The position numbers and the translations under genes are program-made. A DNA stretch of 64,000 nt from Halegenticoccus soli. Its GTDB lineage: Archaea; Halobacteriota; Halobacteria; Halobacteriales; Haloferacaceae. Below, in pieces: positions 13,245-22,714 of the stretch. A model generated the notes under the pieces. It did not search any database. It was not told the origin of the DNA and saw only the letters and a program-made list of their open reading frames with translations. Within the stretch, counting starts at the first letter, position 1. Each line of letters opens with the position of its first letter. Location: contig NZ_PEND01000001.1 in the NCBI RefSeq assembly GCF_002844195.1, positions 186,001 through 250,000 on the forward strand, written 5' to 3'.

Positions 13245-15647
13245 TTAGTCGTCTGCGACCGCGGGAGCAATTACCTCTGCGTCGACTTCGTGCCTCTCGG
13301 ACAGTGGTATCCACCGCAAGTCGCTCTCGTACTGGAACGCGCGGTGGTCCTGAGTCGGGTCGACAACTGCCAGGAAGTGCCAGTTGTTGTCAAGTAGCTC
13401 CGCAACCTCCTCCTGGTCGGCAAGGATGCTGTTGACACGTTCGACCGGAGCGTGGATGACCGTCGAGAGGCGGAGTGGCTGGTGGTACGGTTCGTCGTCA
13501 GCGGTCATGAGAGACTGCAGCGGGAGACCGGTCATCAGGTCGCCGCCGTTGCCCTGGTAGACGCCGATATTGCCGACGGGGTTGTGGGTCACCTTCGACC
13601 CGCTGCCGTAGACGGCGTTGTCGACGGTCGAGAAGTAGTACTGGGTGTTTATCCACTGGGTGACGACCATCGGCCCGGCGAGTATCGCTTCCAGCGCCTC
13701 GCCGTCGGGGTCGGTCGACCAGTCGTACGAGTGGAGGAACGCGCGGCCGTCGAGGTCGAGATCGCTGGTCAGTTCGCGAGGACCAATGACGAAGCCGGCG
13801 TTGCCGGCCAGTCCCCACTCGGGACGGGTTTCGGCCCAGTCGGCAGCGCGGCGTTCCGTCTCGCTGACACCCGACGATCCACCGGGATCCATCGACTCGG
13901 CACGCTCGGCGGCCGCGTTCTCGCGAGCGGTGGCGAGGTCGGCACGCAACTGCTCGAGATCGTCGGCGTGACTCTCGGATACGTCGCTGTCGTACAGTTC
14001 GACCTCGTCGGTCGTCGTGTTGTGTTCGCCGGCGAGGAAGACGGTGTCCTCGGGGACGTCGAAACCGCGTTCGCGGAGCGCCGTCTTGACCTCGGAGTCG
14101 TTGCAGATAGCCGCGAGTACGCGGGCATTCGGCCCGCCGGGGTTGCCGGCACAGGCACCACAGTCCAGACTCGAATCGTATGGGTTGTTGGTCGTCTCGC
14201 TGGCGTGGCCGACGAAGACGACGAGGCGGCTGAACTCCTCCCAGCCCATCAGGTTGAAGGCGGTGGCGGCGTACTCGACTTTTTCCTCGGTGGTCAGCCC
14301 CACTGGCAAATCGCCTACGTAAGTATGCTGGTGATGGACGAGCGGCTCACAGAACTCGTGTTCGTCGGGCACTAACCCGTCAGCGGCGTCGAACAGGCCG
14401 TGGACGCGCCCGGGGACGAGCGTGCGGGCCGCGAGCGCGAGGCCGTAGCCGCTCCCGGCGCTCTCGACGTAGCCGTAGGCCGTGGCGGCGTTGGCCTTTA
14501 GCGTCTCGATGACTTCGTGGGCGGCCTCGCGGACACCCGACCGGCGGTCGTACCTTGTCCGCGTGTCGTCGTCGATCGGAAAGTCGGTGATGCGATGTTG
14601 TGGTTCGAGAATCGGTGGACAGGCATCGACCGGTACGTCGGCGTCGTATCCCTGGTACTCCATCGGGATGCCGAAGAAACCGGCGTACCCGTGGGTCTCG
14701 TAGTCGCCTACTGCCTCGATGTGACGGCGGATGATTTCCGAGCGAGTGTCGATACAGAAGACCAGTTGGGCGTCCGGTCGGCCCGATGTATCGCTCTCGG
14801 CCAGCGACTGACTCTCTGCGGCGACGGCCTCGACGAGGTCACCGCGGTAAGTCGCCTCCCACGCGCGCAGGAACGCCCGGGCGAGTTCGTCGGCCGGGTT
14901 CGCGTCGGCGTCCTCGTTCGAGGGCTCGATGGTGGCACCCACGCCGTCCAGCAGCGCCAGCCGCACCGCCAAGTACCCTTCCAGCGAAATCGGGTACGTC
15001 GACTGCCACTCTCCCTCGTCGGTGGCGCGCTGCTTGATGAAGCCCGTCCAGCCTGGAAGGGCGGCCAATTGCTCCTCGAAGATCGGCACCCACTGGCTCT
15101 CCGGATACGGCTCCAGCACCGTCTCGATGGCCTCGATCGGCGTCTCGGGTAGGTCAGCGACGACCCCCTCGTCGGGGACTTCGCCGTCGTATTCGGCCAC
15201 CTCACGGAATGCGACGTAGAACCCCGCTTCGCGGTTCGGCATCGACCAGTGGGCGCTTCCCTCGTCGAGGAAGGCCGACAGCCACTTCGTCAGCACCCGG
15301 TCGACGTGGTCTGTGGCGGTGTCCGCGTCACGGTCCTCGGTGTCAGCCGCGTCGGCCATGAGGTCGAGTAGCATCTCGGGATCATCCTCGTAGCCGGCCT
15401 CGGCGAGTTCCGCTCCGAGTATTTTCGGGTCTATCTGGCCGCGTTTCAGCGCCTTCCTGAACGTCTCGGCGCTGGGGTAGCCACGGCCGCCGAGCAGGTC
15501 GGCTGCCCGCACGACCGCCTCGTCGAACGGCTGGTCCTCGAACCCCGAGAGGGGGTTGGCCGTCACGAACGAGTGGATGGGCCAGAGCGAGCCCACGCTG
15601 GTCGCTGCATCGTCGATGCTGTCCGGGATGGTGGATTCAGTACTCAT
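13245..15647 (-). CDS. dabA: Inorganic-carbon pump subunit DabA (DUF2309/UPF0753)
   Basis: An 800-residue soluble subunit related to beta-carbonic anhydrases. The zinc-site residues I would assign by family are Cys298 and Asp300 in VFCIDTRSE, His481 in VGHASETTNN and Cys496 in LDCGACAG; Arg302 completes the CxDxR signature. In the known bacterial complex DabA hydrates CO2 to bicarbonate, driven by ion flow through DabB. The ATG overlaps the last 11 bp of dabB, so translation is likely coupled. A heterotrophic archaeon would use this for anaplerotic carboxylation or pH and CO2 balance, which is inference. Confidence 0.93.
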   Translation of the reverse strand: MSTESTIPDSIDDAATSVGSLWPIHSFVTANPLSGFEDQPFDEAVVRAADLLGGRGYPSAETFRKALKRGQIDPKILGAELAEAGYEDDPEMLLDLMADAADTEDRDADTATDHVDRVLTKWLSAFLDEGSAHWSMPNREAGFYVAFREVAEYDGEVPDEGVVADLPETPIEAIETVLEPYPESQWVPIFEEQLAALPGWTGFIKQRATDEGEWQSTYPISLEGYLAVRLALLDGVGATIEPSNEDADANPADELARAFLRAWEATYRGDLVEAVAAESQSLAESDTSGRPDAQLVFCIDTRSEIIRRHIEAVGDYETHGYAGFFGIPMEYQGYDADVPVDACPPILEPQHRITDFPIDDDTRTRYDRRSGVREAAHEVIETLKANAATAYGYVESAGSGYGLALAARTLVPGRVHGLFDAADGLVPDEHEFCEPLVHHQHTYVGDLPVGLTTEEKVEYAATAFNLMGWEEFSRLVVFVGHASETTNNPYDSSLDCGACAGNPGGPNARVLAAICNDSEVKTALRERGFDVPEDTVFLAGEHNTTTDEVELYDSDVSESHADDLEQLRADLATARENAAAERAESMDPGGSSGVSETERRAADWAETRPEWGLAGNAGFVIGPRELTSDLDLDGRAFLHSYDWSTDPDGEALEAILAGPMVVTQWINTQYYFSTVDNAVYGSGSKVTHNPVGNIGVYQGNGGDLMTGLPLQSLMTADDEPYHQPLRLSTVIHAPVERVNSILADQEEVAELLDNNWHFLAVVDPTQDHRAFQYESDLRWIPLSERHEVDAEVIAPAVADD

Positions 15648-17127
15648 TGTAGTCTTCCGTGGAGGTCAGCACGGTGTCCGGTGACGGTTGACTGGCGTTC
15701 AGCAGGGCCACGTAGAGACGCTGGCTGTGTTCGTGGACGCCGGTCTCGATGCCGACGTAGATGCCGACGAAGACGGCGGCGATGACGCCGTGGAGCAGGG
15801 TCAGTTCGGTCGTCGCCGTGCTGACGGTCAGGAGCTCCGAGATAGCCTCGTAGACCACGGCATAGATGACGATAGCAGGGAAGAAGACCAACGGGACGGC
15901 CCCATAGCGGGCCGTCGTCGGAAGCGAAGTGTGCTGGACCGCGCTGCGGGCCGCGTGGAGCGTGGTGAAAACCACGAAGAACGTCAACAGGAGACCACTG
16001 TCGACGTTCGTCCCCTTCCCCGTCAGCACCGCGAACAGCATGCCGCCACTGAGGCCGGTCAGCAGCGCCACGGCAAGGCCGACGACGCTCGTTATGCGCC
16101 CTATCGTGTGCTCGGTCGCCTCGCTTGGGCTGGTGTGTTCGACCTGTCCGCCTGCGCTGAGGAACTGGTAGGCCTTGTAGAAGCCGTGCAGGATGAGATG
16201 GGTGATAGCGGCCCCGAAGAAGCCGAGGCCGACCTGCATGATCATGAACCCCATCTGGCCGATCGTCGAACAGCCAAGCTTGCTCTTGATGTCCGTCTGG
16301 ACTGACTTCAGGAGTTTCCCGCCGACGGCGCTAGCCCCGCCGACAGCGACTACTGCGAGCATAAGCGCGGGATCGACGGTGATGACCGGGGCGAAGCGGG
16401 TTAGCAGGATGGCGCCCGCGTTGACGAACCCGGCGTGCATCAGCGCCGACGCCGAAGTCGGTGCGGTCATCGAGGAGAGCAGCCAGTTGTGGAACGGGAC
16501 GAGCGCGGATTGAATCATCGCCGCGAGCACGAGCGTGCCGGCGGCGATCAGCCACACTGGGCCACCGAGCGTGTCGGCGGCCGCGGCGATCCCGGAGACC
16601 GTAGTCGCCCCGGTCGCCCACCACAGTGCCGTCAGCGCGATCCCAAGGAGCGCGCTGCTGGCGAAAAAGTACTTGCGGGCGACCGCCGCGGCCGCCTGCG
16701 CCTGGTCCCAGCCGCTGGCGATACCGATGAGTTTCGCCATCAGCAGACCCATCGCCAGCCACAGAATCCCAAACAGGGCGACGTGGTCGGCCGCGACTAG
16801 CCCCATCACGACCACCGTGAAACCGAACATAGTGGCGAAAAAGGCCGTTTTGTGGGTGCTTCCGGCCATGTAGCGGCGCGAGTAGCTGTGGACGATGCCG
16901 CTGAAGAAGGTGACGACCACCCACATCAGAACAGTTAGTCCGTCGATGACGACCACGCCGGGGATCTCCCACGCGCCCTCGGTCTGGGCTCGGACGCCAA
17001 GCGTAGCGATACTCGCGATCGACAGTGACCACGCGAGCCACGTGAGTGCGGCGGGCACGAACGGCGGCTCTGCCGTCGTGTCCGGGAGCGATCCGACCGT
17101 CGTCGTCGTTGAGCCGTGTCCTGACAT
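15637..17127 (-). CDS. dabB: Inorganic-carbon pump subunit DabB (NuoL/MrpA-like ion-translocating protein)
   Basis: A 496-residue polytopic membrane protein of the proton-conducting transporter family. Typical segments: SRRYMAGSTHKTAFFATMFGFT, then SALVPFHNWLLSSMTAPTSASALMHAG-like core (the functional antiporter helix with Lys/His replaced by local variants), and SKLGCSTIGQMGFM followed by HGFYKAYQFLSAG. About 13 transmembrane helices by eye. Its 3' end overlaps dabA. The promoter and a palindrome lie 70-100 bp before the ATG. This subunit supplies the ion gradient coupling to DabA. Confidence 0.93.
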   Translation of the reverse strand: MSGHGSTTTTVGSLPDTTAEPPFVPAALTWLAWSLSIASIATLGVRAQTEGAWEIPGVVVIDGLTVLMWVVVTFFSGIVHSYSRRYMAGSTHKTAFFATMFGFTVVVMGLVAADHVALFGILWLAMGLLMAKLIGIASGWDQAQAAAAVARKYFFASSALLGIALTALWWATGATTVSGIAAAADTLGGPVWLIAAGTLVLAAMIQSALVPFHNWLLSSMTAPTSASALMHAGFVNAGAILLTRFAPVITVDPALMLAVVAVGGASAVGGKLLKSVQTDIKSKLGCSTIGQMGFMIMQVGLGFFGAAITHLILHGFYKAYQFLSAGGQVEHTSPSEATEHTIGRITSVVGLAVALLTGLSGGMLFAVLTGKGTNVDSGLLLTFFVVFTTLHAARSAVQHTSLPTTARYGAVPLVFFPAIVIYAVVYEAISELLTVSTATTELTLLHGVIAAVFVGIYVGIETGVHEHSQRLYVALLNASQPSPDTVLTSTEDYNEY

Positions 17128-17219: not shown

Positions 17220-17227
17220 TATTAAAT
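17220..17227 (-). promoter_or_regulatory. TATA-like element of dabBA
   Basis: On the minus strand this reads ATTTAATA inside an AT-rich stretch (17215-17275), upstream of dabB. It predicts a transcript starting near 17195 with a ~65-nt leader. Confidence 0.5.
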
Positions 17228-17318: not shown

Positions 17319-18020
17319 TCAGTTCAGGAGACTCCCTACCTGAACCGAGGGATCGTCCGGGAGGCGAGGCCGAATCTCGGTCGGTTCAGTCGCACCGTCA
17401 AGAGCAACTAGATACCGCTTGCCGGGGAAGGAACTGTACGCCCCGTCTTGATCGTGGACGTAGCCAGCAATCGTGACCGAAGGGGGGAGTGCCTGCTGGA
17501 GAAACCGAACTTGGCGGCTGACATTGTATTCGACGAGTCGATACGCTCTCGTCCGAAGTGACGTAGATTCCTCGAAGAGGCCCTGCTCGGCTCCATCCTC
17601 GACGAGGGAAACGAGCGGATCCAATCGTGCCTGGACGCCTGCAGGCGATTCTGGTGGCGGTGACACCCACCGATCGTACGCATCTCTGAGAACCTCACAC
17701 CTCGTATGTCCAACGACGAGCACGGCTGCGATGTCGTACTGGTTCCTGAGATGTGCAATGTCACCGTCGATAACCGTCTCGCCCTCGTATCGTTCCCGCG
17801 TCTGGTTTCCGAGGGTCTGAACGCCGACGGCGTTCCAGGCGGCGTCAATTGGCCAGAGTGGCTCACGGGGTTCGCAGTCACTCATCGAACACGAGACGAC
17901 GAGGGCGGTCTGAGCACTCGATGCGCGTACCGAATCTCTTCGAGATTCGGTCCAGTCTTGGACGGATTCGATGAGAGATTCGAGACTGTCCCCGCTCATC
18001 AACGGGTGGTCCACCTCCAT
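17319..18020 (-). CDS. Beta-carbonic-anhydrase-like protein lacking the Asp/Arg dyad
   Basis: A 233-residue protein starting at the ATG at 18020 (another ATG at 17999 is possible). It keeps the three zinc ligands of beta-carbonic anhydrases: Cys44 in VVSCSMSDCEP, and His105 plus Cys108 in VVGHTRCEV. In active enzymes the first motif is CxDxR; here the Asp is Met46 and the Arg position is Asp48. The C-terminal part (SRQVRFLQQALPPSVTIAGYVHDQDGAYSSF) matches the family's last strands. It lies just upstream of dabBA on the same strand but beyond their promoter. It may be a partner or regulator of the pump rather than a normal carbonic anhydrase. Confidence 0.8.
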   Translation of the reverse strand: MEVDHPLMSGDSLESLIESVQDWTESRRDSVRASSAQTALVVSCSMSDCEPREPLWPIDAAWNAVGVQTLGNQTRERYEGETVIDGDIAHLRNQYDIAAVLVVGHTRCEVLRDAYDRWVSPPPESPAGVQARLDPLVSLVEDGAEQGLFEESTSLRTRAYRLVEYNVSRQVRFLQQALPPSVTIAGYVHDQDGAYSSFPGKRYLVALDGATEPTEIRPRLPDDPSVQVGSLLN

Positions 18021-18167
18021 TCACGCGTATCGGTGTCTGTCATCGACCGTCAGGACAGAATAGCCGCCGAGACGAAATAGTGTTACCGAAACGTTCGATA
18101 TTCGGGGTTTGAAAAATCATATCGTTATTCGGGATGTCGGGTTCCTGTCGCAGTCTGTCCGCGCGCG

Positions 18168-18500
18168 AATACTGTCTTGGGTAGACCCCCAGTACGGGAG
18201 TTGGTCGATCACACGACAGTCGCACTCGGGACGGATAACGTACCGCTCAATCCACCCGCTATGGTTCGCGAGATGGCATATACGGCGAAACGATTCGACG
18301 TGACCGCGCGGGAGGATGTCAAGGATGGCGACGACCGCGGGTGCCGAGATCGTCGGACTTGACTGTGGAGTCATCGCTCCTGGCCGCCGGGCCGCACTCA
18401 CCGTTCTCGACGGCGACTCGGACAATCTGGCTGACTCAGTCGATCCGGTACGTGCAGTCGTCCGGCGCGCGACCGCGCTCGATATCAAATACGTCGTCAG
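18168..18500 (+). pseudogene. 3' fragment of an amidohydrolase (COG0402-type), frameshifted
   Basis: Frame 3 from ~18168 reads GRPPVRELVDHTTVALGTDN, then VREMAYTAKRFDVTARE, which is the metal-binding GTDN strand region of cytosine-deaminase/chlorohydrolase-like amidohydrolases. After a frameshift near 18310-18318 it continues in frame 1 as MATTAGAEIVGLDCGVIAPG, RRAALTVLDGDSDNLA and DPVRAVVRRATALDIKYVV, the usual C-terminus. The N-terminal ~250 residues with the HxH motif are absent. Its 3' end abuts the Lrp gene on the other strand. Confidence 0.8.
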
Positions 18501-18974
18501 TCAGCTGCTGTTCTCGGAATCGAACTTGCCGAAGGGCGTCGTCTCGTGGCTTCGAACGAGCACTTCGTCGGCGACTGTCAGTCCCATATCGAGGAGTTCC
18601 TGCGCCACGGGCGTGATCTCGCTGTCCGACTCGCCGACAGCCGTCACGAGGAGATTCCGTTCACCAGTGACCAGTTCCTGAACCGACACAACGCCGTCGA
18701 TCTCCAAGATTTTGGGTATCAGGTCGCCGCGTTCGGATATCGAAGCAGTACAGTAAAGCAACATTCGGAGGGGGTAACCCGCCTTCTGATAATCGACGCT
18801 GGCGCTGTATCCTTTGATTATGCCGTCGGACTCGAGGCGCTGGATGCGCTTACGGACCGTACTGTCCGAGGTACCGGTTCGCTCTGCGATGTCTCCGGAC
18901 GACGTGTTACGAGCATCCTCTTGTAACGCGTATAGGACTGCTCTGTCCACGTCGTCAATTTCTTCGTCAGCCAT
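18501..18974 (-). CDS. Lrp/AsnC family transcriptional regulator
   Basis: A 157-residue regulator. Residues 1-60 are a winged HTH (VDRAVLYALQEDARNTSSGD, then GTSDSTVRKRIQRLESDGII). Residues ~65-150 are a RAM/AsnC ligand domain (VQELVTGERNLLVTAVGESD). Such proteins sense small molecules, commonly amino acids, and act as activators or repressors. A TATA-like element (TATAAA at 19006-19011 on the minus strand) sits ~32 bp before the ATG. Being the nearest regulator to the dab genes it is a candidate for controlling them, which is inference. Confidence 0.92.
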   Translation of the reverse strand: MADEEIDDVDRAVLYALQEDARNTSSGDIAERTGTSDSTVRKRIQRLESDGIIKGYSASVDYQKAGYPLRMLLYCTASISERGDLIPKILEIDGVVSVQELVTGERNLLVTAVGESDSEITPVAQELLDMGLTVADEVLVRSHETTPFGKFDSENSS

Positions 18975-20147: not shown

Positions 20148-21725
20148 TCAGGCGAGGAACACGTGCCGCGGCCGGTCCGCGAGCACGTCCCGCCCCCACC
20201 GGACCGTGTCCCTGAACTCCTCGCTCCGGAAGAACGCCATCGCGTCCTCCTTCGAGCGCCACTGGCTGGAGATGAACATGTCGTTTTCGTCCTCGCGGTT
20301 CACCATGAGGTCAGTGCCGTGGTGACCCTCCATGTCGTCGAGCAGCCCGCCGACCGTCGCGAACTTCCCGACGAAGTCCTCGCGGTGCTCCGGCTCGACC
20401 GTGTAGAACATCCCCATCGTGCCGAACCCGGACTCCTCGCCCGCGCGGGAGACGATCCCGGGCAGTTCCGAGAGGAACCCCGCGGCGGTTTCGGCGGCGC
20501 TCGCCGTCTCCCAGACGCTCACGACCGCCGATCTCTCCCCGTCGCTGGCCTCGTACACGGCGGTCTTGACGTGCGTGCCGTAGTGGTCGAAGTTGCCCCG
20601 CAGCCCCTCGACTTCCTTGAACAGCTCGGCGGGGTCGGCTTCGGAGTACAGGACGGTGGCGTACACGTCCTCGCCGTGCGGCTTGCCGGCGTAGACGTTC
20701 AGCTCCTCCAGTTCGCCGCGGATCTCCTCCGAGGCGTCGGCGGACTCGTCGCGTCCGCGGCCGTGACCATCTCGGGCGTCCTCACCGCCACCGTGGGCGT
20801 GGTGGGCGCCGCCTCCGTGATGGTTGCCGGCTTCGGCGCGACCGCCCTCGCCGCGTCCGCCGTGGACGCCGTTGTCGACGCCGTGCTCGGACGTCGGGAC
20901 GGGGTCGCCGGCGAGGAACGTGCCCAGATCCGACGGCGGGAATCGCCGACCGACGTAGAACCGCCCGAACTCGCCGTACTTCGAGGACGCCTCGTCGAAC
21001 CGCATCTCGTAGACGATGTCCTTGATGTCGGTCGGATCCGCCGCGAAGAGCGTGACGCCCCACTCGTAGTCGTCGAAGCCGACGCTGGAGGCGATGACCT
21101 GTTTTATCCTCCCGGCGAACTTCCGCCCCACGTCGCCGTGGCCCGACATGAGCTCGGCGCGCTCGTCGAACGGCAGGTCGTACCAGTTGTACACCTCGCC
21201 CCGGCGCTTTTTCATCGGGTAGAAGCTCACGTACTCGTCGTCCGGGATGTCCGGTTTGAGCTTCCCCTCGATGTAGCGGCGGAGGCCCTCGTCGATGGAT
21301 TCCGCCCCTCCTTGGCTTACCTCGCCGGTTTCGGCCTCGTCGTCGGACGGCTCCGACGCTTCGCTCTCGAAGTAGGCGTCGGAGACGTAGCCGGACACCT
21401 CGGTGACGGAGACGTACGACGTCGCCCTGTCGGTGAAGCCCGCGAGGGCCGTCCGCTCGAAGCGGCGCTCCGCCGTCGACAGGTCGTCGAGCGTCGGGCG
21501 GAAGTGCAGGAGCAGCAGGTCGGCCTTGTGGCCCAGAAGCCCGAACACGGCCGACGCGCCCTCCTCCGCGTCCTCGACCGCCTCGTGCGATTCGAGGTAC
21601 CGAACGCCGGCTTCGATCGCCCGTTCGCGTTCCCGTTCGGGCGTGTCTCGCCACGCGTCCCAGTCGACCGTCCGGAAGTCGTGCAGCGCGTACCACCCTT
21701 CGTCGGTCTGCGGCGGCTCTGGCAT
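20148..21725 (-). CDS. pitA: PitA: chlorite-dismutase-like coproheme/heme protein fused to an ABM monooxygenase-like domain
   Basis: A 525-residue protein starting at the ATG at 21725. Residues 1-270 are the Cld/HemQ fold. Tyr169 in SFYPMKKRR and His196 in MSGHGDVGRKFAGR match the catalytic Tyr and proximal heme His of coproheme decarboxylases, followed by FDDYEWGVTLFA. Residues ~281-330 are a Gly/His-rich linker with eight His. Residues ~335-525 carry two antibiotic-biosynthesis-monooxygenase-like ferredoxin folds. It matches haloarchaeal PitA, thought to act in the last step of heme synthesis. Separated from the divergent FNT gene by ~150 bp. Confidence 0.9.
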   Translation of the reverse strand: MPEPPQTDEGWYALHDFRTVDWDAWRDTPERERERAIEAGVRYLESHEAVEDAEEGASAVFGLLGHKADLLLLHFRPTLDDLSTAERRFERTALAGFTDRATSYVSVTEVSGYVSDAYFESEASEPSDDEAETGEVSQGGAESIDEGLRRYIEGKLKPDIPDDEYVSFYPMKKRRGEVYNWYDLPFDERAELMSGHGDVGRKFAGRIKQVIASSVGFDDYEWGVTLFAADPTDIKDIVYEMRFDEASSKYGEFGRFYVGRRFPPSDLGTFLAGDPVPTSEHGVDNGVHGGRGEGGRAEAGNHHGGGAHHAHGGGEDARDGHGRGRDESADASEEIRGELEELNVYAGKPHGEDVYATVLYSEADPAELFKEVEGLRGNFDHYGTHVKTAVYEASDGERSAVVSVWETASAAETAAGFLSELPGIVSRAGEESGFGTMGMFYTVEPEHREDFVGKFATVGGLLDDMEGHHGTDLMVNREDENDMFISSQWRSKEDAMAFFRSEEFRDTVRWGRDVLADRPRHVFLA

Positions 21726-21874
21726 ACGCCCGGCTTGGCACGGTGCGAACAAGGACCTTTTGAGTCCGCGCCGGCGGAGCAGTCTGTTCGGCGCGGTCCG
21801 ATTCGGTCGCGCAGTCGATCGCAGCCGTAGCCGTTTTGCGCCGTCCCCGCGTTTGACGCCCACGGCTCTCTCCG

Positions 21875-22714
21875 ATGTCATCTGACGAACCAACGGGTGC
21901 GACGCTGTCGTACCGACGTATCCTCGAACAGGAGATGGAGAACGCGCTGAAGGAGATCAACCGCCCCGCGAAGGGCGTGTTCCTCTCGGGCATCTCCGCC
22001 GGGCTCAACGTGAGCTTCGGCGCGTTGTTTATGGGGATGGCGCTGACGTACGCCGGCGGGTTCTCCTCGTCGCTCGTCCAGCAGGCAGTCCTCGCGGCGG
22101 TGTCGTCCGTCGGCTTCGTCTTCGTCATCCTCGGCCAGACGGAACTCTTCACCGCCCACACGACGATGGCCGTCATTCCGGTGCTCGACGGCCGCGCGAC
22201 GCTCCGCGAACTGCTCGGGCTCTGGGGCGTCGTCTACGTCTCGAACCTCGTCGGCTGCGCGCTGTTCGCCGGGCTCATCGCGGTTCTCGGTCCGGCGCTC
22301 GGCATCGTTCAGCCGTCCGCGTTCGCGACCATCGCGGAGGCGGTCGTTCCGTACCCCTGGTGGGTGATCCTCCTCAGCGCCGTCGTCGCCGGGTGGCTGA
22401 TGGGCCTCGCGACGTGGCTCGTCGCGGCCAGTCTCGACGCCATCTCGCGGGTCGTCCTCGTGCTCCTCACCACCGCGGCGATCGGATTCGGACCGTTCCA
22501 CCACGCCCTGCTGGGGTCGACCGAGATGCTCGCCGCCATGTTCCTCGGCCAGGGAGTGACGCTCGCAGAGTTCGCGACGGTCCTCGCGTGGACGACGATC
22601 GGCAACGCCGTCGGCGGCGGCGTCTTCGTCGCGCTGCTCAACTACGGACACGTCGCCCTCGCCGGCGAGCGGGTCGACGTCGACTTCGACGCCGAAACCG
22701 ACGCGAGCGACTGA
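21875..22714 (+). CDS. Formate/nitrite transporter (FNT) family channel
   Basis: A 279-residue membrane protein with six helices and the FNT fold. Family landmarks: RPAKGVFLSGISAGLNVSFG near helix 1 and GQTELFTAHTTMAVIPVLDG after helix 2b. HHALLGSTEMLAAMF is in helix 5 and TIGNAVGGGVFVALLNYGH in helix 6. Family members conduct small monovalent anions such as formate, nitrite, hydrosulfide or lactate; the substrate is unclear here. The gene precedes a PadR regulator by 66 bp. Confidence 0.92.
   Translation: MSSDEPTGATLSYRRILEQEMENALKEINRPAKGVFLSGISAGLNVSFGALFMGMALTYAGGFSSSLVQQAVLAAVSSVGFVFVILGQTELFTAHTTMAVIPVLDGRATLRELLGLWGVVYVSNLVGCALFAGLIAVLGPALGIVQPSAFATIAEAVVPYPWWVILLSAVVAGWLMGLATWLVAASLDAISRVVLVLLTTAAIGFGPFHHALLGSTEMLAAMFLGQGVTLAEFATVLAWTTIGNAVGGGVFVALLNYGHVALAGERVDVDFDAETDASD

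Follow-up and report, generated by a model that had tools for sequence, protein, structure and literature searches.

A gene next to the dabBA genes of Halegenticoccus soli raises the question of what a relative of the beta-carbonic anhydrases (beta-CAs) does beside DAB (DabAB), a membrane pump for CO2 uptake, when it keeps the zinc ligands of these enzymes and has lost their Asp-Arg dyad. We have studied it within a stretch of 64,000 nucleotides (contig NZ_PEND01000001.1, positions 186,001 to 250,000), called here the window, and refer to its product, a DAB-linked beta-CA-like protein with no Asp-Arg dyad, as CAL. DACs occur in Halobacteria, which are heterotrophs (PMC10880623), and HVO_2410/2411 have been named as dabAB (PMC8305020). 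In the open-licence PMC literature, we found no description of a beta-CA-like protein that lacks the dyad and is encoded beside dab.

The CAL gene and its predicted fold

CAL lies on the reverse strand of the window, in an open frame of 233 aa that extends from 17319 to 18020. The true start is probably Met8, at position 17999, which gives a gene at 17319–17999 and a protein of 226 aa. We placed it there because a Met is found at the aligned place in 18/18 members (some of them with additional GTG starts upstream) and because the CDS annotated for the homologue in Halorussus pelagicus begins at the matching position; the rows of our alignment were trimmed at this same Met. The Pfam model Pro_CA (PF00484) matched the window protein with 22.0 bits, below the gathering cut-off of 25.7 and over residues 84–177 only, and it matched all 12 CAL members scanned at E ≤ 1, the best of them at 1.1e-7. 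The single CAL protein, used as query, had no match in NCBIfam or among PDB sequences. The structure predicted by AlphaFold from 57 aligned sequences (pLDDT 88.8, pTM 0.84) is that of a beta-CA: the best 50 Foldseek rows were all beta-CAs, at moderate TM-scores (0.46–0.56 by query length), and so were 49 of the best 50 rows of VIA-align, headed by the H. influenzae beta-CA 3e2x (Z 16.8, 162 residues, rmsd 3.1), with LCIB in the last row. A pseudogene or a sequencing error in the window could be ruled out, the frame being open and selection being seen (see below).

A zinc site kept without the catalytic residues

When CAL is aligned with the Can protein of E. coli (obtained by translation from NC_000913), D44, R46, H98, and C101 of Can correspond to CAL positions 46, 48, 105, and 108. 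The zinc ligands Cys44 (codon 17889–17891, on the reverse strand like all codons given here), His105 (17706–17708), and Cys108 (17697–17699), which an earlier note on this DNA had described as kept, are present in the window protein and invariant in the 18 intact copies. Invariant columns number only 24 out of 226 in the CAL alignment, and all three zinc columns would fall among them by chance with a probability of ca. 0.001. We infer that CAL holds zinc through this Cys2His set. The same note had read the CxDxR motif as C44-S-M46-S-D48, and the Can alignment agrees, with Met in place of the dyad Asp and Asp in place of the dyad Arg. At position 46 (17883–17885) there is Met in 16 copies and Leu in two, compared to Asp in 39/39 ordinary haloarchaeal beta-CAs. 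The Asp site thus stays Met or Leu, while the Arg site, position 48 (17877–17879), drifts (six D, four S, two each of G, Q, and R, one N, and one H). As all 18 intact members keep Cys, His, and Cys and have Met or Leu at position 46, neither chance nor a sequencing slip accounts for the loss of the dyad.

Could the dyad be supplied elsewhere? A dyad made of D48 and a nearby Arg in register, which the earlier note had considered, found no support, Asp occurring at position 48 in six of the 18 copies and Arg at the Arg position in two. A dyad out of register was also ruled out, since C42, H98, and C101 anchor the Can alignment and there is no conserved pair of Asp and Arg near Cys44. The dyad may have been relocated, in which case D113 could be paired with R161 (both 18/18) or R132 (15/18).

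CAL shares with the beta-CAs (PF00484; the Cab/plant type and the type II enzymes Can and HICA) the fold and the Cys-His-Cys zinc triad, and it has G104, L162, E164, G186, D190, and Y195 in common with the haloarchaeal ones. What it lacks goes beyond the dyad. Gln35, Asp46, and Phe65 are retained in 0/18 copies and Arg48 in 2/18, compared to 39/39 for all four in the ordinary haloarchaeal beta-CAs. Of these, the Gln column corresponds to the transition-state site (Gln33 of PACA) and holds neither Gln nor His in any of the 18 copies, compared to Gln in 39/39 ordinary CAs, while the Phe is the pocket residue that matches Phe61 of Can. The Gln is described as a stabiliser of the transition state (PMC13144422). 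With this Gln and the pocket Phe lost besides the dyad, ordinary CA chemistry by CAL seems unlikely, although we would go no further than to call the protein presumably inactive, since the D34A variant of the archaeal beta-CA Cab shows only a modest loss of kcat with kcat/KM unchanged (PMC12018205). For the D44N variant of HICA we found no account in the open-licence PMC literature.

The clade also has residues of its own that the beta-CAs do not have. Asp113 (17682–17684) is present in 18/18 copies, compared to Ala in 39/39 ordinary CAs, and Cys49 (17874–17876) in 14/18, compared to Val in 39/39. Similarly, His90 is found in 14/18 copies (Tyr in 38/39 ordinary CAs) and His189 in 12/18 (Tyr in 39/39). 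These four residues probably line the pocket, and we read the whole pattern as a zinc site under selection from which CA chemistry has been removed while the pocket was rebuilt, rather than as plain decay.

Such a rebuilt site might still be that of an active enzyme, with Asp113, His90, and His189 handling proton transfer or ligand orientation, either in CO2 hydration by another route or in some other hydrolysis for which the beta-CA scaffold would serve. CS2 hydrolase, which is among the listed relatives, illustrates that this scaffold can switch chemistry. The invariant zinc ligands and the polar residues that replace Ala or Tyr would suit this reading, as would the unchanged kcat/KM of Cab D34A (PMC12018205) and the example of Rv1284, which functions without the Gln (PMC13144422). 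However, the dyad Asp, the Gln, and the Phe are lost from all copies and the dyad Arg from 16/18, an ordinary CA gene is already available in the CAL genomes, and in DabA2 the substitutions D353A, D353N, and R355A significantly impair growth at low CO2 (PMC13144422). Altogether, we consider an active CAL unlikely, if still worth keeping in mind. The new Cys49 suggests another role, that of a zinc-thiolate switch responding to redox state or zinc availability, in which an oxidised Cys44-Cys49 pair would release zinc and report to DAB. This Cys is indeed peculiar to the clade and lies five residues from Cys44, but four of the 18 copies do without it, and a switch of this kind appears highly improbable.

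Type II beta-CAs possess a non-catalytic bicarbonate site formed by Trp39, Arg64, and Tyr181. The earlier note had suggested a bicarbonate sensor, and one built on this site is not borne out, the corresponding columns having Trp in 0/18, Arg in 1/18, and Tyr in 4/18 copies (absent from 18, 17, and 14, respectively). Trp39 and Arg64 are missing from the ordinary haloarchaeal CAs as well, but the Tyr is kept in 39/39 of them.

A distinct haloarchaeal clade coexisting with ordinary carbonic anhydrases

A search of 391 Halobacteria genomes gave matches in 348 of them, and at least 14 genomes belonged to the close CAL group, defined by at least 37% identity and the dyad-less motif, with G063 counted as a broken copy. 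The remaining matches that were aligned were ordinary CAs. A CAL profile separated both kinds (at least 262 bits for CAL and at most 163 for ordinary CAs), and profile searches of 170, 146, 125, and 28 genomes provided four more genomes (G403, G422, G398, and G446). Three families (f3, f4, and f6) were searched at E ≤ 1e-50, a level not reached by the ordinary CAs seen, and the coverage of the other haloarchaeal families consists of the 391-genome search and the matches within a 392-genome sample of the phylum. In total, we have retrieved 18 intact CAL genes from 17 genomes, plus the frameshifted copy of G063, and the intact ones span six families and deep branches. A partial genome (G398) contains two different CAL-dabBA loci (L182 and L183) and may be a mixed assembly, its contamination being 6%. 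The profile search found no CAL in a genome of the same genus (G394). Outside the window's own order there was none at E ≤ 1e-35 in the phylum sample, for which the class make-up is not given, and among 117 pattern matches in viral_contigs none was confirmed. A tree that included E. coli Can and 39 haloarchaeal CAs of the ordinary type showed the CAL sequences as monophyletic with support of 100/100, on a long stem branch of 1.11 changes per site.

Each of the 18 CAL genomes (17 with intact copies and G063) has one or more ordinary Pro_CA genes that score above the cut-off, with C-x-D-x-R and H-x-x-C motifs, and a replacement of the ordinary CA by CAL is ruled out by this coexistence. One of these genes, in G021, is frameshifted past the H-x-x-C motif in the assembly, so that intact-looking ordinary CAs are present in at most 17. 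The ordinary CA of the window genome (contig C7, G000:C7:57902-58492) is of the same fold family as CAL, with ca. 30% identity over residues 24–222, but it has the full dyad (CCSDSRV), is encoded away from dab, and does not group with the CAL clade. Four CAL genomes and G063 also contain beta-CAs of a second haloarchaeal group (L204–L208), which has C-M-D-E-R and H-T-D-C motifs.

Beta-CAs are dimers or higher oligomers, and CAL, as an inactive subunit, could enter mixed dimers with the ordinary enzyme and lower its activity while DAB runs. The kept fold and the ordinary CA gene in the 18 CAL genomes would make this feasible. However, the linkage of CAL is to dabBA, with a second CA-type match in only one of 13 loci (L046) in a search with the CAL protein, a query that detects ordinary CAs weakly, the ordinary CA of G021 is frameshifted, and the length of the stem branch makes shared interface residues doubtful. 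Mixed dimers are therefore a very unlikely explanation.

Linkage to the dab genes

The neighborhood agrees with the placement beside dabBA given in the earlier note. The gene of the membrane subunit, dabB (15637–17127, reverse strand; Proton_antipo_M, PF00361, 117.7 bits), is found 191 bp downstream of CAL, together with dabA, the gene of the vectorial CA subunit (13245–15647, reverse strand; PF10070, 902.5 bits), which keeps C-I-D-T-R and H-x14-C. A TATA-like TTTAATA (17220–17226, reverse strand), 93 nt upstream of dabB, is weak evidence of a possible separate promoter for dabBA, and with this box and the 191 bp gap between the genes CAL and dabB may not share a transcript. CAL adjoins dabB-dabA in 19/19 loci, including the window and the broken copy of G063, and the active-site motifs of DabA (C-x-D-T-R and H-x14-C) are kept in all of them. 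In 18/19 it directly precedes dabB, with a gap of ca. 170–290 bp; in G066 the gap is ca. 1.0 kb (L045 9268-10304) and includes an unrelated frame (173 aa, reverse strand).

We compared these with dab loci that have no intact CAL, a hand-picked spread rather than a random sample. Three of 40 loci were dropped, L127 and L129 because they showed no dab and L134 because it duplicates L119, and the 37 left include L128, chosen for its CAL fragment. In 36 of them the interval is in view and the order is Lrp-dabB-dabA, while the remaining one (L112) is truncated by the end of its contig. The Lrp/AsnC-type regulator gene, which in the window lies at 18501–18974 (reverse strand), is upstream in 18/19 CAL loci (in G021, the only one without it, the locus lies at a contig edge) and accompanies nearly all the haloarchaeal dab loci inspected, with or without CAL. 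Its presence beside 36/37 loci without intact CAL rules it out as a CAL-specific partner and suggests a near-universal dab neighbor, a candidate regulator of dab.

Other genes of the surroundings vary. Between Lrp and CAL, the window has the relic of an amidohydrolase-family gene (18021–18500, forward strand), of which the C-terminal part is recognizable; in several relatives the gene is whole (ca. 340 aa) and located between Lrp and CAL or dabB. Further away, a chlorite-dismutase/ABM-domain fusion (20148–21893) stands beside a gene of the formate/nitrite-transporter (FNT) family on the opposite strand (21875–22714), the two listed frames sharing 19 bases at their 5' ends, and FNT-type matches also occur near dab in L046 and L116. 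Ordinary beta-CA genes are found near dab in 10 of the 37 CAL-less loci (L107, L108, L111, L115, L116, L118, L119, L126, L130, and L144), on various sides of it, as if they had been repeatedly recruited.

The suggestion that CAL might be a partner of the pump has fared well as far as linkage is concerned, this being found in 19/19 loci, but not if a core subunit is meant. DabA was detected in 240 of the 391 Halobacteria genomes, among them all of the at least 14 that carry CAL. This distribution, together with the 36 CAL-less loci and the scattered occurrence of CAL among dab loci (see below), rules out a core DAB subunit.

Shared history, transfer, and loss

The evolutionary distances of CAL correlate with those of DabB (r = 0.885), DabA (0.814), and Lrp (0.813) over 17 copies, and none of 2000 permutations gave values as high. 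The correlation between DabA and DabB (0.887) is comparable to that of CAL with DabB. As the permutation leaves common descent in, such tracking fits the joint inheritance of a linked locus and is by itself no proof of interaction. When the presence of CAL is plotted on a DabB plus DabA tree (55 loci, quick method), it changes 12 times, at least nine of them on well-supported branches, and it is only weakly clustered, 20 of 500 shuffles being as low. Either an old presence followed by many losses or spread together with the locus could give this scatter. G287 and G204 have relics of CAL in the Lrp-dabB gap, and the copy of G063 is frameshifted; among the 36 Lrp-dabB gaps scanned for such relics, only those of L126 and L128 exceeded the shuffled controls. 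Judging from this repeated loss or breakage and from the scattered label on the tree, DAB evidently works without CAL.

The locus also appears to move. Two genomes of different families (G049 and G403, loci L037 and L180) share an 8.5 kb CAL-dab locus at 95.3% identity, a clear case, as we read the comparison, of recent transfer of the whole locus between families, and in H. pelagicus CAL is carried by a plasmid of 303 kb. In the window, the third-position GC of CAL (0.64) and Lrp (0.68) is lower than the 0.89–0.96 seen in genes farther away, and the CAL-Lrp stretch (17319–18974) is probably an acquired locus.

Selective constraint was estimated for eight genomes, dropping pairs with dS ≤ 0.2 and leaving out G403. 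The median dN/dS was 0.306 for CAL (27 pairs, 0.20–0.40), 0.199 for DabB, 0.195 for DabA, and 0.090 for Lrp, which means that CAL evolves faster than its three neighbors. The near-identical pairs gave values for CAL of 0.43, 0.46, and, with very few changes, 2.01 (G049-G403). One could see in CAL a decaying passenger, a former CA with no present function, and the relics, the frameshift, the scattered occurrence with its 12 changes, and the faster evolution all point in that direction. However, dN/dS remains at 0.20–0.40 over the 27 pairs, the zinc triad and D113 do not vary across the 18 copies, which come from six families and deep branches, position 46 stays Met or Leu with no drift, and the locus has moved nearly intact between families. 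A mere passenger is thus quite unlikely.

Possible role of CAL

A parallel within the locus is DabA itself (PF10070; DAB/MpsB), which has a beta-CA-like fold and a Cys2His zinc site like those of CAL. However, DabA keeps the Asp-Arg dyad and has ca. 800 aa, compared to the 226 aa of the dyad-less CAL. The site of DabA2 is composed of Cys351, Asp353, Arg355, His524, and Cys539 (PMC13144422), to which the motifs of DabA in the 19 CAL-bearing loci correspond. Purified DAB2 shows no spontaneous CO2 hydration, and DabA2 is also devoid of the Gln (PMC13144422). For an optional gene beside the pump there is a precedent in MpsC of Staphylococcus aureus, a dispensable third gene next to mpsA and mpsB, the homologues of dabB and dabA (PMC6689103). 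The likeness, drawn from descriptions only, is limited to this dispensable position, since MpsC is confined to staphylococci by synteny and no likeness to CAs is stated in the part of its description used here (PMC6689103).

The reading that we prefer, with a probability of roughly 45%, is that CAL is a zinc-binding beta-CA paralogue dedicated to DAB, in which the chemistry of CO2 hydration has been given up and the pocket rebuilt, and which acts as an optional accessory. With the dyad, the transition-state Gln, and the pocket Phe gone, it would not hydrate CO2 at the rates of a CA. In a complex with zinc and a small ligand, which may be inorganic carbon, CAL would tune or assist DabA/DabB, presumably through physical or regulatory contact with them. 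The bicarbonate that DAB makes would be converted back to CO2 by a free CA, and a dead CA close to the pump would avoid this. The presence of ordinary CA genes near 10/37 of the CAL-less dab loci weakens this argument.

A more specific version appears to us rather unlikely: CAL as an optional third DAB component, a zinc-bearing pseudo-CA that binds CO2 or bicarbonate without turnover and thereby gates DabA or docks on it. If true, a gating CAL would give the pump a feedback control by inorganic carbon that the CAL-less loci lack. Between a sensor, a subunit, and a new enzyme, the sequences do not discriminate.

Returning to CAL as an optional zinc-binding accessory, its position beside the pump and the loss of the catalytic residues with the zinc ligands kept suggest an accessory or reshaped role and not ordinary carbonic anhydrase work. 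It would represent a naturally separated module for the binding of zinc and inorganic carbon, in which the zinc ligands have been kept and the catalytic residues lost. The single clade member that we saw in an annotated record, that of H. pelagicus, is named 'carbonic anhydrase'; such a plain name is an annotation trap and would lead models of haloarchaeal CO2 metabolism astray.
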